NCBI GenBank assembly: GCA_029262455.1
Contig: JAJCZJ010000063.1
Location: forward strand, 62,001 to 126,000
DNA: 64,000 nucleotides
Direction of reading: 5' to 3'
Origin: Deltaproteobacteria bacterium
GTDB taxonomy: Bacteria; Desulfobacterota; Binatia; HRBIN30; CADEER01
This document shows, piece by piece, positions 1 through 5,589 of this stretch. The notes beneath the pieces were generated by a model, which did not search any database, was not told where the DNA came from, and saw nothing but the letters and a program-made list of their open reading frames with translations. How positions within the stretch are numbered: the first letter of the stretch is position 1; the number at the start of each line of letters is the position of its first letter. Made by a program: the position numbers and the translations under genes.

Positions 1-632
1 CGGCGCACGGCGTCGAGCACGCCGACCAGCGGAACGTCGTAGGCAAGCAGTAGGTCCGGATCGACATCCACCTGGTATTGCTTGACGAAGCCGCCGATCG
101 CTGCGACCTCGGCAACCCCCGGCACCGACTGCAGTCGATAGCGCAGGTGCCAGTCCTGGAGACTGCGCAGCTCGGCGAGATCGTGTCGCCCCGAGGTGTC
201 CTTCAGGGCGTACTGATACACCCAACCAACACTGGTGGCGTCCGGTCCCATCACCGTTTCAACACCCTCGGGAAGCCGCGCCAGCACCTTGCTGAGGTAC
301 TCGTTGACGCGTGCGCGTGCCCAGTAGAGATCCGTACCATCCTCGAAAATGACGTAGACGTAGGAGTAGCCGAAGTCGGAAAAACCGCGGACGGCCTTCA
401 CTCTGGGGGCGCCGAGAAGAGCGCTGACAATTGGGTAGGTGACCTGGTCCTCGAGCACGTCGGGTGTGCGATCCCAACGGGAATAGACGATGACCTGGGT
501 GTCGGACAGATCGGGGATCGCGTCGACCGGAAGCTTGTCGAGGGTCCAGAGCGCTACGAGGCAAGCGCAGGCGGTGACCAGGAGGACCGCGACCCTGTTC
601 CGCGCGCTGAAGTCGATGATCCTCTCGATCAT
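1..632 (-). CDS. cusA: Heavy-metal RND efflux pump CusA, N-terminal part (runs off window)
   Basis: Inner-membrane proton-driven pump subunit of a tripartite Cu/Ag-type exporter. About 210 N-terminal residues are visible. They contain a first membrane helix, then PVDAIPDLSDTQV, a VRGFSDFGYSYVYVIFEDGT stretch and GPDATSVGWVYQYAL, all hallmarks of the CusA/CzcA (HME-RND) family and closest to CusA. The ATG at 632 overlaps the stop of the upstream adaptor gene (ATGA), so the two are translationally coupled. The C-terminal 80% lies outside the window, so metal-binding Met residues cannot be checked. Context with NirK and copper oxidases fits copper supply or detoxification (inference). Confidence 0.9.
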   Translation of the reverse strand, partial: MIERIIDFSARNRVAVLLVTACACLVALWTLDKLPVDAIPDLSDTQVIVYSRWDRTPDVLEDQVTYPIVSALLGAPRVKAVRGFSDFGYSYVYVIFEDGTDLYWARARVNEYLSKVLARLPEGVETVMGPDATSVGWVYQYALKDTSGRHDLAELRSLQDWHLRYRLQSVPGVAEVAAIGGFVKQYQVDVDPDLLLAYDVPLVGVLDAVR

Positions 633-1780
633 CTGGGGGTGCTTGGCGAGGTGTCTGCTGGCTCGGGAGCCCGCTCAGGGCGCGGCGCGGCAAATGCCGC
701 CAGCGCCGCACGGAATCGGGATTCGGAGTCGATCAAAAAGTTTGCCGAAGTGACGATCTGCTCACCCGCCGCCAGACCGGTGAGGATCTGGTAGTAGTCG
801 TCCGCCTCGATCCCAGCTACGACTGCGCGCGGCTCGAAGTGGCCTCCGTCGTCGCGTACGAAAACGATCTGCCGCGTGCCGGTGTCCAGCAGAGCTTCTA
901 CGGGAAGCGCCAGATGCCGCCCGAGCGGGACTTCGATCTCGACGTGCACGCGCATTCCCGGGCGTAGACCGCCACCCGGCGTGGCGACGAGGACACGGAC
1001 ATCCACACCGCGCGCAACCGGATCGCTGGTCGCGTCGACCGTCACGACACGTCCCCGAAAACTCCGTCCGGGCGATGCCGGCGAGGTAACGGTGACGGCG
1101 TATTCAACGCGTGGGTGATCGATCTCTTGTGCGTAAACCCGACTGTAGACCCATGCGCTTTGTCCAGGCAGCAACAACGTGACGGGGTCGTTGCCAGCCC
1201 GGAACAAGGCGTCGAGCTGAGCGCGGGAGATACCAAGTTGGCGGAGGTTCAGAGCCAACGATCGGCTTCGGCCATCGGCGGCCACCCGACGCTCCTCGCT
1301 CGTCTGGCCGCCAGGACCTTCCGCGACCCGCAAGAGAGCCCGGTATTCACTCAGAAGACCGTAGAGCTCGGGATCGTAGGCCACGGTTCCGGCGGTGCGG
1401 ACTCGGCGGCTCAACTCGCGGTAACCGATCGTCGAGGTCTTGACGCCGATCAACTGTTCGCGCGTCGCCGAAAGCACGATCGGCGCGTGCACGGACGAAT
1501 GGTCCGACCCCCCCGGCGCACTCGTCGTTTCGGGCTCGACGCTCGAAAGGTTCATTCCGCAGATAGGACATTGCCCCGGACCATCGGCGATCACCTGGGG
1601 ATGCATCGAGCACTGGTAAGTGAGGTCGACCGCAGCCCTGGCCGACGGTACCTCACCCGTATCGAGTGCCTGCCACGACCACGTCGCCAAGATCGCAACG
1701 ATCACAACGGTCGCCAAGGTCGCAATAAGAAAAGACGCACCGGCCACGAGTTTCCGTGGCCGCCGCGTCCCTGTTGCCAT
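629..1780 (-). CDS. cusB: CusB-type efflux periplasmic adaptor with heavy-metal-binding domain
   Basis: Membrane-fusion protein linking a CusA pump to an outer-membrane channel. An N-terminal membrane anchor (about residues 10-35) is followed by a heavy-metal-binding domain with paired Cys: YQCSMHP then GQCPICGMNL. Barrel-sandwich and beta-barrel segments follow, including LRPGMRVHVEIEVP near the C-terminus. About 383 residues, normal for the family. I use the ATG at 1780; a TTG two codons upstream is in frame but overlaps the nirK stop. The stop at 629 overlaps the cusA start by 4 bp. No outer-membrane factor (CusC) is seen here. It sits at the end of the nitrite-reductase cluster, suggesting co-regulation with the copper enzymes. 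Confidence 0.9.
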   Translation of the reverse strand: MATGTRRPRKLVAGASFLIATLATVVIVAILATWSWQALDTGEVPSARAAVDLTYQCSMHPQVIADGPGQCPICGMNLSSVEPETTSAPGGSDHSSVHAPIVLSATREQLIGVKTSTIGYRELSRRVRTAGTVAYDPELYGLLSEYRALLRVAEGPGGQTSEERRVAADGRSRSLALNLRQLGISRAQLDALFRAGNDPVTLLLPGQSAWVYSRVYAQEIDHPRVEYAVTVTSPASPGRSFRGRVVTVDATSDPVARGVDVRVLVATPGGGLRPGMRVHVEIEVPLGRHLALPVEALLDTGTRQIVFVRDDGGHFEPRAVVAGIEADDYYQILTGLAAGEQIVTSANFLIDSESRFRAALAAFAAPRPERAPEPADTSPSTPR

Positions 1781-1782
1781 TT

Positions 1783-2739
1783 TCAACGCAAGATCAGCTT
1801 GTCAGCACGACCGAGGGTTGGATCGGCTTCGTCGTTGGTCATCAACACCGAGATGGCACCACGTAGCGCGCGGCGCATGGCGTGGTCGACAATCGCGTTG
1901 TTGGTCGGTCGATTCGCTGGAGGGACCAGGTCGAAGATGGCACCCGATGCGGGGGGGATGGTGAAGGTCTGAACGCCCTCCGAAACGTTGCGCGGATTGC
2001 CGTGATCATACACCCGATCCCAAATCCCCGCGATCGGGTGCAGCGCAACCGGGTCATTGACGTTGGCGTTGACGTAGTAGAACCGAACCCGCTCTCCGGG
2101 TTTGGCTTGCAAGGTCTGCGTCGCATCCTGATCGTGCACTGGATCGTACTTGAAGACTCGCCCGTTGATGAGCGACCCGACCCAGTTCTTTCCATCGAGC
2201 AGATCGTCGACCGAGGTGCCTTCGCGGAAGAGGTCGCCCTGGACGAGGACATACTCGCGATCGGGCTTCGGGAATTTCTTGGAAAATCCTTCTTTGGGAT
2301 CGACGATGATCACCCCGTACATACCGCGCGCGATATGCTCCACCATTGCCGAGGCGCCGCAGTGGTAGATGAACACACCCGGGTACTTCGCTTCGAAGGT
2401 GAACTTTTTCGTGCCGCCTGGCTTGATCTCGGCGAACTCATCGAGGACGTCGACAATCGCAGCATGGAAGTCCATCGAGTGGCTGTTCTTGTTCGCCGCG
2501 TCGTTGGTGAGCGAGAAGTCGACGACATCGCCCTCGGTGACTCGCACCAAGGGGCCCGGGATGGTCCCGTCGTAGGTCCACATGTTTTGCTTGGTCCCTT
2601 TGTTGTCGACTTGGATCTCGACCTCTTTCACGGTCATCTCGACCTTCACGGTCTTGGCCCAGGCCGTCGGCGCAAAACTTGTGGCCAATCCCAGAGCCAG
2701 CACAAGAACGTGTGGGCGAACGGATAGTTTGGTGATCAT
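1783..2739 (-). CDS. nirK: Copper-containing nitrite reductase (NirK/AniA-like)
   Basis: Periplasmic enzyme expected to reduce nitrite to nitric oxide; 318 residues with a signal peptide ending near AWA-K29. All family copper ligands are visible. Type 1: H87, C127, H135, M140. Type 2: H92, H126, H286. The catalytic Asp is D90 (HSMDFH) and the catalytic His H234 (LHPIAG). The start is set by GGAGGAG seven bases before ATG 2739; an upstream in-frame extension in the same frame looks non-coding. It lies 55 bp after the cytochrome-copper oxidase fusion and 2 bp before cusB, all leftward. An NsrR-like site heads the cluster, as expected for a nitric-oxide-producing enzyme. A non-denitrifying copper oxidase role cannot be excluded without activity data. 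Confidence 0.85.
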   Translation of the reverse strand: MITKLSVRPHVLVLALGLATSFAPTAWAKTVKVEMTVKEVEIQVDNKGTKQNMWTYDGTIPGPLVRVTEGDVVDFSLTNDAANKNSHSMDFHAAIVDVLDEFAEIKPGGTKKFTFEAKYPGVFIYHCGASAMVEHIARGMYGVIIVDPKEGFSKKFPKPDREYVLVQGDLFREGTSVDDLLDGKNWVGSLINGRVFKYDPVHDQDATQTLQAKPGERVRFYYVNANVNDPVALHPIAGIWDRVYDHGNPRNVSEGVQTFTIPPASGAIFDLVPPANRPTNNAIVDHAMRRALRGAISVLMTNDEADPTLGRADKLILR

Positions 2740-2794
2740 GGTTGCTCCTCCATTGTCGGCGGATCTGCCGGGTACGAGCGACGAAGTCTGCCGC

Positions 2795-4279
2795 TCACTT
2801 TGCGCTGAGTGCGTCGGTGCCACGAAAGCCCGGGTGGTCGAACAGACCTGAACCGGCCGCGAGGCTTTCGCTGTAGTAGAAGTTTGGGTCGTAGTGCTTG
2901 TCTTTCCAGACGTACCAGGAGGGCTTCTCGATCTCCTCGTACTCGACGATTAGCATCGATCCGCCCATGTCCTTGCCGGCGTTGGTGACATGGTGGTCGA
3001 CGTGATCGTGGGTCATCCAAATCCCGGGATTGTTCATCCGAACGATCGCGTCGTAGCGCTCGCCCTCGCCGATATGGATGACATCAGCCCAGTACGGGCT
3101 GGCCAACGGCAGACCGTCCTTGTGGGTCACCAGCATGTCGTGCCCGTGTAGGTGGAACGCGAGATCAGTCCCGGCCCCGAACAGCCGCAAGCGCAGAACA
3201 TCCCCTTCGCGCACCCGCAGTGGCTGCGTCAGCGGGAACGACTTGCCGTTGATCGAGTAGTAGTCGCGGACTTCTCCCGGGTGTCCTCCGACGCCGTAGC
3301 GATCGGCGGAGGCGGAGCTCCAGCCCGAGAACATCAGAATAGCGTCCTTCGTGACTTCCTTCTCGAGGATGGTTGGCTCGAGCGGATCGACGATCAGGGG
3401 CCCCCACATACCGCGGAGCCCGACGTGTTCGGCGACGTTTACGTGGCAGTGGTACCAGAGTGTCCCGGGCCGCGTGGCGATGAAATGGTAGAGAAAACTG
3501 CCACCGGGCTGCACCGGTTGCTGGGATACGTTGGGCACTCCGTCGCTCTGCCAGCTGCCCAGCTGATGCACTCCATGCCAGTGGATGGTGTGTTCCATCG
3601 ACGTTAGGTTGACGAAGTTGACCTTCACTTCGTCGCCTTCGCGAACGCGAATCAGCGGGCCCGGCACCTGCCCATTGAACCCCCAAACCTTGGCGCTAAA
3701 CCCGGGAGCAACGTCGATCTCGACCTCTTCGACGCGAACCTCGAACTGGTGGAGCACGCTCGCGGCGTAGCTGCTCTTCACGGCACCCGGCGGCGGCGGC
3801 GCAACCACATCGAGCGGGCCCGGGTCGATTGCGGCGACGGCGATCGGTTGCGCGCGATCAGAGGACGGCGCCGGTGCAGGTGTCGCCGCGACAGCCGCAA
3901 CGGCGACGGGCGCGCCTTCGCTGTCCGACAACTCGCGCAGATACTCGACCATCCGTTCGATCTCTTCGTCGCTCAGGATTGCCCGCCAAGCCGGCATGAG
4001 GACAGACTTTCCGACCGCGGGCCCGCCATTCTTGATGGCGTTGAACAGGTCCTGATCGCTGCGCGTTCGCATTTCGCGCGTGTCGGTGTGATCGCGGGGC
4101 TGCACCGCCATCGCAACGACGTTGATGCCCTTGCCGTTACCGGCGACCCCGTGGCACGGCGTGCAATACGTGTCGTACCCGAGCTTGGCGTCGAACTCGT
4201 CCGCGGCGGCATGCGCGACACCAAGGAACAGGCTGACAGCGATCCCGAACGCGACTCTGGCTATCTCAACGCTTCGCAT
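2795..4279 (-). CDS. Cytochrome c fused to a two-domain multicopper oxidase
   Basis: A 494-residue periplasmic protein. Order: signal peptide (to about A25), class I cytochrome c domain with C39-T-P-C42-H43 and probable axial M95, an Ala/Pro-rich linker (about 122-165), then two cupredoxin domains. Domain 1 has H230-x2-H233-W-H235, H277-C278-H279, H285 and M291, so it carries both a type 1 site and half of the trinuclear cluster. Domain 2 has H376/H378/H380 and H424-D425-H426, where the usual type 1 Cys is Asp. This matches a type C two-domain oxidase, as known from nitrifiers. ATG 4279 is preceded by GAGGA at 8 bases; ATG 4285 is possible. Its start overlaps the upstream cytochrome gene. Likely an electron-transfer partner or oxidase in nitrite/copper chemistry (inference). 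Confidence 0.85.
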   Translation of the reverse strand: MRSVEIARVAFGIAVSLFLGVAHAAADEFDAKLGYDTYCTPCHGVAGNGKGINVVAMAVQPRDHTDTREMRTRSDQDLFNAIKNGGPAVGKSVLMPAWRAILSDEEIERMVEYLRELSDSEGAPVAVAAVAATPAPAPSSDRAQPIAVAAIDPGPLDVVAPPPPGAVKSSYAASVLHQFEVRVEEVEIDVAPGFSAKVWGFNGQVPGPLIRVREGDEVKVNFVNLTSMEHTIHWHGVHQLGSWQSDGVPNVSQQPVQPGGSFLYHFIATRPGTLWYHCHVNVAEHVGLRGMWGPLIVDPLEPTILEKEVTKDAILMFSGWSSASADRYGVGGHPGEVRDYYSINGKSFPLTQPLRVREGDVLRLRLFGAGTDLAFHLHGHDMLVTHKDGLPLASPYWADVIHIGEGERYDAIVRMNNPGIWMTHDHVDHHVTNAGKDMGGSMLIVEYEEIEKPSWYVWKDKHYDPNFYYSESLAAGSGLFDHPGFRGTDALSAK

Positions 4280-5015
4280 CGTCATCTTCCTCACTGAGAA
4301 TGCGCAGGTACCCAATGAGCTTGCCGACTTCGTTGGGCGCCAGACCATAGCCCGGCATGGGCGCGGCTGGATCCCAGTCTTGTGGGTGAGCGATGTAGCT
4401 CGAAAGAAACTCTGGGCGGAGTCGATCATACGCCCGGTGGAGGTCCGGGCCCGACAGGGGCGGGGACTCGTCATCGGTGCGGTGGCACGACCCACAGCCC
4501 TTGAACTTGGCAAAGTTCAGCTCGGCCAGCATGCGTGGCACCTTCACTGGTTTGGCCGCTTCGCCGGCCAGACTCTCCTGGAGGGCGTCCAAGGCAACCA
4601 GCGCACGCACGACGGGCTCGATCTGATCCTCCGGTACGCTGGGGTGAGCGAACGGTCGCTCGACGACGGCGTCGCTGGCGCCAGCGGAGGTCGTCGTGCG
4701 CCTCGCGGGATCAAGTCCGGCGGGACGGATCACAGTCGGGTGAAGGAGCCACTCGCGGAGCCATTCCGGGCGAAACTTGCTACCGGCATAGAACAGGTCC
4801 GGCCCTTTTCGCTCGCGGTAACTCTTGAGTGTGCGGGATTCGGCGGGAGGCTCGTCGAGTTGGTGGCAGCCCCCGCACCCGAGACCTCGGAGATCCGCAG
4901 CAGGCGCGTCGGTGGCGTGAGCCGGGGGCGTCGATCCCGCAAGATACCCGACCAACAGGCCGACCAACGCCGTGCGACTGGCGATCGTCGAAACCCGAAC
5001 CCAACTAGAAATCAT
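4266..5015 (-). CDS. Diheme c-type cytochrome
   Basis: Periplasmic electron carrier of 249 residues with a membrane signal (about 15-28) and two CxxCH sites, C47-G-G-C50-H51 and C174-G-S-C177-H178. M220 in PMPGYGL is a likely axial ligand for the second heme. The second domain resembles small cytochromes of the cbb3 subunit III/c553 type. The ATG at 5015 follows GGAGG by 11 bases; a GTG at 5027 is in frame but sits on the ribosome-binding site. First gene of the leftward cluster, directly downstream of the NsrR-like operator, and it overlaps the next gene by about 14 bp. It probably feeds electrons to the fusion oxidase or NirK (inference). Confidence 0.85.
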   Translation of the reverse strand: MISSWVRVSTIASRTALVGLLVGYLAGSTPPAHATDAPAADLRGLGCGGCHQLDEPPAESRTLKSYRERKGPDLFYAGSKFRPEWLREWLLHPTVIRPAGLDPARRTTTSAGASDAVVERPFAHPSVPEDQIEPVVRALVALDALQESLAGEAAKPVKVPRMLAELNFAKFKGCGSCHRTDDESPPLSGPDLHRAYDRLRPEFLSSYIAHPQDWDPAAPMPGYGLAPNEVGKLIGYLRILSEEDDDAKR

Positions 5016-5074
5016 ACGAAGCACCACCTCCCCGGATAGGATGCGCGGATCATCCTGTGCTGATGTTTGAATTG

Positions 5075-5091
5075 TGGTATTTGAAATGCCA
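5075..5091. promoter_or_regulatory. NsrR-like operator palindrome
   Basis: TGGTATTTGAAATGCCA is an interrupted palindrome: TGG-Y-ATTT, one central base, AAAT-R-CCA. The ATTT-N-AAAT core and the outer R/Y positions match the published NsrR-type pattern (ATGYATTT-N-AAATRCAT). It lies between the divergent regulator gene and the nitrite-reductase cluster, 60-75 bp from each start, so it could control both. Confidence 0.6.
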
Positions 5092-5148: not shown

Positions 5149-5589
5149 ATGAGGCTCACGCACTTTTCCGACTACGGCCTTCGCGTGCTGATGTATCTAG
5201 CGAGCCGCCCTGGCGAACACGTCGCGAGTGCGGACATGGCCCGCCACTTCAACGTTTCGTGGAACCACTTGCTCAAGGTGGTACGCCGCTTATCGGAGCT
5301 CGGGTTTGTCGAGGCCAAGCGCGGGCCACACGGCGGAGTCAAGTTGATGCCTACGGGCCTCGACGTGACGGTCGGCGAGATTGTTCGCAACCTCGAGCCT
5401 CAAGGCGAGCTGGTCGAGTGCTTCAACGAAGAGACGAACAGCTGTCCGCTGGTCCAGGGCTGTCGCCTCGCGCCATTACTCGATCGCGCCAACTCCGCCT
5501 TTCTAGGCGTCTTGGACGAAGTTCGGGTGCGCGATCTCGTGCCTACCACGGAGCTAGCGGACTCAACTCCTCCGACCGCGCGGAGGTAG
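5149..5589 (+). CDS. nsrR: Rrf2-family regulator, NsrR type (Fe-S, NO-sensing)
   Basis: A 146-residue winged-helix Rrf2 repressor. The N-terminus MRLTHFSDYGLRVLMYLA is typical of NsrR. The [Fe-S] ligand Cys are C91, C99 and C105 (C-x7-C-x5-C), close to the NsrR spacing and different from IscR. NsrR proteins bind a cluster that nitric oxide destroys, which releases repression of NO-metabolism genes. The gene diverges from the cytochrome/copper-oxidase/nirK cluster, with an NsrR-like palindrome between, so direct control of that cluster and of itself is likely. No clear ribosome-binding site precedes the ATG. The last ten codons overlap one copy of a direct repeat that flanks zntB. Confidence 0.8.
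   Translation: MRLTHFSDYGLRVLMYLASRPGEHVASADMARHFNVSWNHLLKVVRRLSELGFVEAKRGPHGGVKLMPTGLDVTVGEIVRNLEPQGELVECFNEETNSCPLVQGCRLAPLLDRANSAFLGVLDEVRVRDLVPTTELADSTPPTARR

Follow-up and report, generated by a model that had tools for sequence, protein, structure and literature searches.

Within the window (the whole 64,000-nucleotide stretch of DNA that was analyzed), one gene encodes a cytochrome c joined to a two-domain multicopper oxidase that can be assigned to type C. Both the parts of the protein and the operon around it have been described before; what is new is the fusion, which makes this locus an uncommon version of an established system. The gene probably represents a fusion of ncgC-like and ncgA-like genes, the product of which would be an exported trimer that passes electrons from its heme through a type 1 copper to an O2-reducing cluster, serving nitrite and NO tolerance under NsrR-like control. 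Full-text searches of open-access papers turned up no account of a type C oxidase fused to a cytochrome; this agrees with the preliminary description of the locus, which knew of no such member.

Table 1. Features of the fusion gene and its surroundings in the window.
Feature	Position	Strand	Evidence
CusB-like metal efflux adaptor with heavy-metal-binding domain	629..1786	-	CusA next, past window edge
NirK copper nitrite reductase	1783..2739	-	Top PDB match 4kns (N. europaea NirK), 2.9e-103
Fusion gene, cytochrome c :: type C two-domain multicopper oxidase (NcgC::NcgA-like)	2795..4279	-	Translation, Pfam, PDB sequence matches, model
Two-domain oxidase, residues 173-494	2795..3763	-	PDB alignments, motif reading
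Pro/Ala-rich linker, residues 119-172	3764..3925	-	Model pLDDT; sequences of fused relatives
Cytochrome c domain, residues 27-118 (C39, C42, H43, probable distal Met95)	3926..4201	-	PF13442, 1e-9; PDB cytochrome matches 6h5l, 7o38
Diheme cytochrome c (NcgB-like), first operon gene	4266..5027	-	CGGCH + CGSCH, PF00034
NsrR-type palindromic box GTATTTGAAATGC	5077..5089		Pattern scan, divergent intergenic region
NsrR-like Rrf2 regulator, divergent from operon	5149..5589	+	PF02082, 6.3e-31

The fusion protein and its type C oxidase part

From its translation, the gene runs on the minus strand from an ATG at 4279 to a stop at 2795 and specifies 494 amino acids; the product is predicted to be secreted or exported. 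The amino terminal part contains C39-T-P-C42-H43 and L94-M95-P96, which provide the two hallmarks of a class I cytochrome c, namely a CxxCH motif and a distal Met within a conserved LMPxW motif. This domain is 43–77% identical to separate or fused homologs. The oxidase part presents H230-x2-H233-x-H235, H277-C278-H279, H285, M291, H376-L-H378 and H424-D425-H426, with copper ligands at H230, H233, H235, H277, C278, H279, H285, M291, H376, H378, H424 and H426. A Pfam search of the whole protein identified Cu-oxidase_3 (3.4e-37), Cu-oxidase_2 (1.6e-22) and Cytochrome_CBB3 (1e-9). The top PDB sequence matches were 2zwn, the metagenomic two-domain laccase mgLAC (9.3e-141), and 3g5w, a blue copper oxidase from Nitrosomonas europaea (8.6e-113); all of these matches far exceed what chance would give. 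While both share the copper ligands of the fusion protein, including the His-Asp-His motif, neither solved chain has a cytochrome domain.

Types B and C of the two-domain oxidases are set out in PMC3192119; a type 1 site in domain 1 alone identifies type C. In alignments to 2zwn and 3g5w, the type 1 ligands H230, C278, H285 and M291 are found in domain 1, and four HxH motifs (HWH at 233, HCH at 277, HLH at 376 and HDH at 424) are available for the trinuclear cluster. The oxidase part therefore retains the pattern for type 1 and trinuclear copper that had been noticed in domain 1, and reads as a type C enzyme with every type 1 and trinuclear ligand in place. Translation and motif reading also agree with the coordinates and residues given in the preliminary description, and its view of the protein as a type C oxidase with an amino terminal heme is upheld by the Pfam and PDB matches and the ligands. 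It had further proposed a Cys-to-Asp change in domain 2. The H424-D425-H426 motif is indeed present, but H-D-H is the normal type C state and nothing has been lost. Since the type 1 site of a type C oxidase lies only in domain 1, Asp425 is to be expected; domain 2 has H-D-H and no type 1 Cys in the fusion protein, 2zwn and 3g5w alike, and H-D-H was also read in all close relatives for which the site was covered and matched. With Asp as the family norm, a loss particular to the fusion protein was rejected.

A model of the fusion monomer built from 63 sequences had a mean pLDDT of 88.9. The oxidase part overlaps the known structures, superimposing on 2zwn (Z = 51.3, RMSD 0.7 Å, 316 residues) and 3g5w (Z = 49.5, RMSD 0.9 Å) with the same fold. 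Other oxidases and copper nitrite reductases followed in the structure comparison with Z scores of 30 or less. Because the model is of a monomer, a trimer with trinuclear clusters at its interfaces, and the distance from heme to copper, are inferred from these relatives. The linker is predicted to be disordered, with pLDDT values below 50 at residues 123–139 and 141–147 and very low confidence at almost all of residues 123–147. Carboxy terminal to this stretch, a segment APPPPxxLKxxY is kept in the fused proteins.

An ncgABC-nirK type operon and its regulator

The operon extends leftward from 5027 in the order diheme cytochrome c, fusion, NirK and CusB, followed by CusA outside the window. The first two genes share a 14-nt overlap, and the diheme cytochrome c is conserved in 36 unfused clusters. 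NirK has the usual ligand motifs (H87-S-M-D90-F-H92, H126-C127, H234 and H286). Thus, an oxidase, a diheme cytochrome c, a monoheme cytochrome c (here joined to the oxidase) and NirK occur together at 1783–5027, and from this gene content the operon is of the ncgABC-nirK type, with a probable NcgC::NcgA fusion. The preliminary description was accurate about the fusion itself; it gave the fusion without the operon and missed the ncgABC-nirK type setting in which cytochrome and oxidase are separate elsewhere.

In N. europaea, the gene order is ncgABC-nirK (PMC4940428). The ncgABC-nirK systems of N. europaea and Nitrobacter winogradskyi likewise combine a type C oxidase and NirK with diheme and monoheme cytochromes c; they are under NsrR-type control, a candidate mode of regulation for the source operon as well. 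Whereas these have three separate ncg genes, the source genome has NcgC and NcgA as one polypeptide and a different order, with the diheme cytochrome, the fusion and nirK followed by CusBA. The order oxidase, diheme, monoheme, nirK is seen in loci L054, L055, L062, L066 and L067; since this is the N. europaea order, the diheme protein corresponds by position to NcgB and the monoheme protein to NcgC. On gene order, this is probably the correct assignment of the two cytochromes, and 3g5w is probably NcgA itself.

The neighboring efflux genes bear on another reading, in which the oxidase is a CueO-like cuprous oxidase that protects or loads copper enzymes and the heme is an extra electron exit. 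It would suit the position of CusB and CusA directly after nirK in the source genome, and in the same-genus relative (L019) a 64%-identical CusB likewise comes after nirK. Among the loci compared, however, CusB adjoins the cluster in this genus only, so the link is lineage specific and a cuprous oxidase is improbable.

The best NCBIfam model for the divergent regulator is NsrR, with 109 bits, which is under the model cut-off of 182. A scan of the loci and the window with the NsrR-type box pattern returned five matches, four of them upstream of ncg-type operons, while five control palindromes returned none. Besides the source, the fused relative L048 has this type of box ahead of its operon, and L023 has it there two times. 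An inverted-repeat search of the promoter found nothing; the box escaped it because of short, imperfect half-sites. On the same contig, another NsrR-like Rrf2 regulator is located next to CusA (L081:16906-17343) and outscores the operon-side regulator against the NsrR model. About 13 kb from nirK, the contig also encodes a 772-residue quinol-type NO reductase (PF22085 and PF00115; C63:48483-50801, L081:6483-8801). A search of three fused relatives for an NO reductase of the same type found none in two and a weak match below the cut-off in the third. A search of the source genome for NosZ gave no match above the cut-off.

Predicted electron flow and role

In the favored mechanism, the protein would be exported and its oxidase part would trimerize, with each trinuclear cluster held where domain 1 of a subunit meets domain 2 of its neighbor. 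Electrons would move from the tethered heme to the type 1 copper in domain 1 (Cys278) and on to the trinuclear cluster, where O2 would be reduced. Nitrite or NO would turn the operon on by way of the NsrR-like repressor, and the operon, with NirK, the diheme cytochrome and CusBA metal efflux, would serve nitrite and NO tolerance. By analogy to heme-fused NirK, one would expect the heme to reduce the type 1 copper, with O2 being reduced at the trinuclear cluster; the earlier suggestion of an internal electron donor is plausible. The heme-fused copper nitrite reductases of Ralstonia pickettii (4ax3, 3ziy) and Bradyrhizobium (6the) likewise have a cytochrome c in covalent linkage with a two-domain copper enzyme that forms trimers, the trimer being predicted in the present case. 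Those enzymes have a single type 2 copper, whereas the enzyme part of the source protein is a putative trinuclear oxidase. The heme of the R. pickettii enzyme is C-terminal, in contrast to the amino terminal heme of the source fusion.

The ncg genes of N. europaea have been implicated in tolerance of nitrite and N-oxides (PMC5080386, PMC6967387; also PMC4940428, PMC3603346). The same protein and operon might instead oxidize NO to nitrite, or handle another N-oxide at copper, with the heme carrying electrons off to guard against NO made by NirK. An operon that holds NirK and an NsrR-like regulator would be in keeping with this, as would the observation that nirK is harmful in ncgABC mutants of N. 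europaea (PMC5080386). Both NO oxidation and O2 reduction as an electron sink are compatible with the N. europaea ncg data. However, the trinuclear O2 site is intact, and the relatives of known structure go by the names laccase or blue copper oxidase. Since the O2 site is complete, O2 reduction is preferred and NO oxidation is considered unlikely. With both parts in one protein, the fusion allows direct measurement of electron transfer from heme to a type C oxidase and of the candidate substrates O2, nitrite and NO.

Distribution and origin of the fusion

A scan of a genome collection for related loci found 42. Cytochrome and oxidase are separate, and mostly neighbors, in 36 loci, comprising 33 of the 42 and three further genomes of the phylum. 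In these 36, which are mostly from Pseudomonadota, the monoheme cytochrome, diheme cytochrome, NirK and oxidase cluster as separate genes, with more than one gene order among the loci. The search for the same architecture that the preliminary description had proposed placed the fusion in four genomes only: the source, its congener L019 (the same place as L008), L020 from Myxococcota, and L048 (the same place as L065) from the same class as the source and a different family. In a tree of the oxidases, the four fused proteins form one clade with 100/100 support that branches from within the separate genes of proteobacteria; the simplest reading, and a likely one, is that the fusion arose once. 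In the phylum, the oxidase was found (E < 1e-60) in 3 of 395 sampled genomes; in the class, the count was 5 of 148. The idea that the fusion has spread widely or on plasmids was rejected; only four plasmid records matched, all below 60% identity and without coverage of the cytochrome.

Rarity would be expected if the fusion lacked functional meaning, having arisen through neutral read-through or a fault in the assembly. That it is present in four divergent genomes of one clade makes such an explanation very improbable, and APPPPxxLKxxY is exclusive to the fused proteins. Between the source and its congener, dN/dS was 0.13 for the cytochrome, 0.21 for the linker and 0.05 for the oxidase, rough values given a dS near or above 1, which point to purifying selection on both domains and the linker. 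An assembly artifact was rejected on the basis of recurrence in three other, independently diverged genomes of one clade and the low dN/dS.

A Cys-Cys or Cys-x-Cys end directly follows the last helix in 32 of the 33 separate NcgC-like proteins (L021–L067) that were readable; L023 is the exception, and the motif employed could not read L036. The four fused proteins all lack this tail and have the linker in its place. A testable idea is that the tail may have a docking role that the fusion makes unnecessary; a duller alternative is that the gene end was simply lost when the fusion formed. A disulfide between tail and oxidase is unsupported since the oxidases, with one exception, have no Cys beyond the type 1 ligand. 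A natural fusion tells which two of the ncgABC products act together, and this one suggests that the NcgC-like and NcgA-like products are direct electron partners. It is conceivable, and put forward tentatively, that the protein is a self-contained heme-to-trinuclear-copper oxidase, the first heme-fused type C enzyme, which reveals NcgC and NcgA to be direct electron partners and takes the place of the Cys-tailed free cytochrome in a nitrite/NO-tolerance operon.

Some of the related loci vary in other ways. In L042 (4825-5877, Cellvibrionales), the diheme and monoheme cytochromes seem to make up a single triheme protein, which would be a different kind of fusion within this operon. In L055 (5406-6401), nirK is split by an in-frame stop near residue 51, either as a pseudogene or from a sequencing error. 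In L049, L051 and L052, a type C oxidase adjoins a divergent NirK (33–35% identical to that of the source), and the two cytochromes are both absent.
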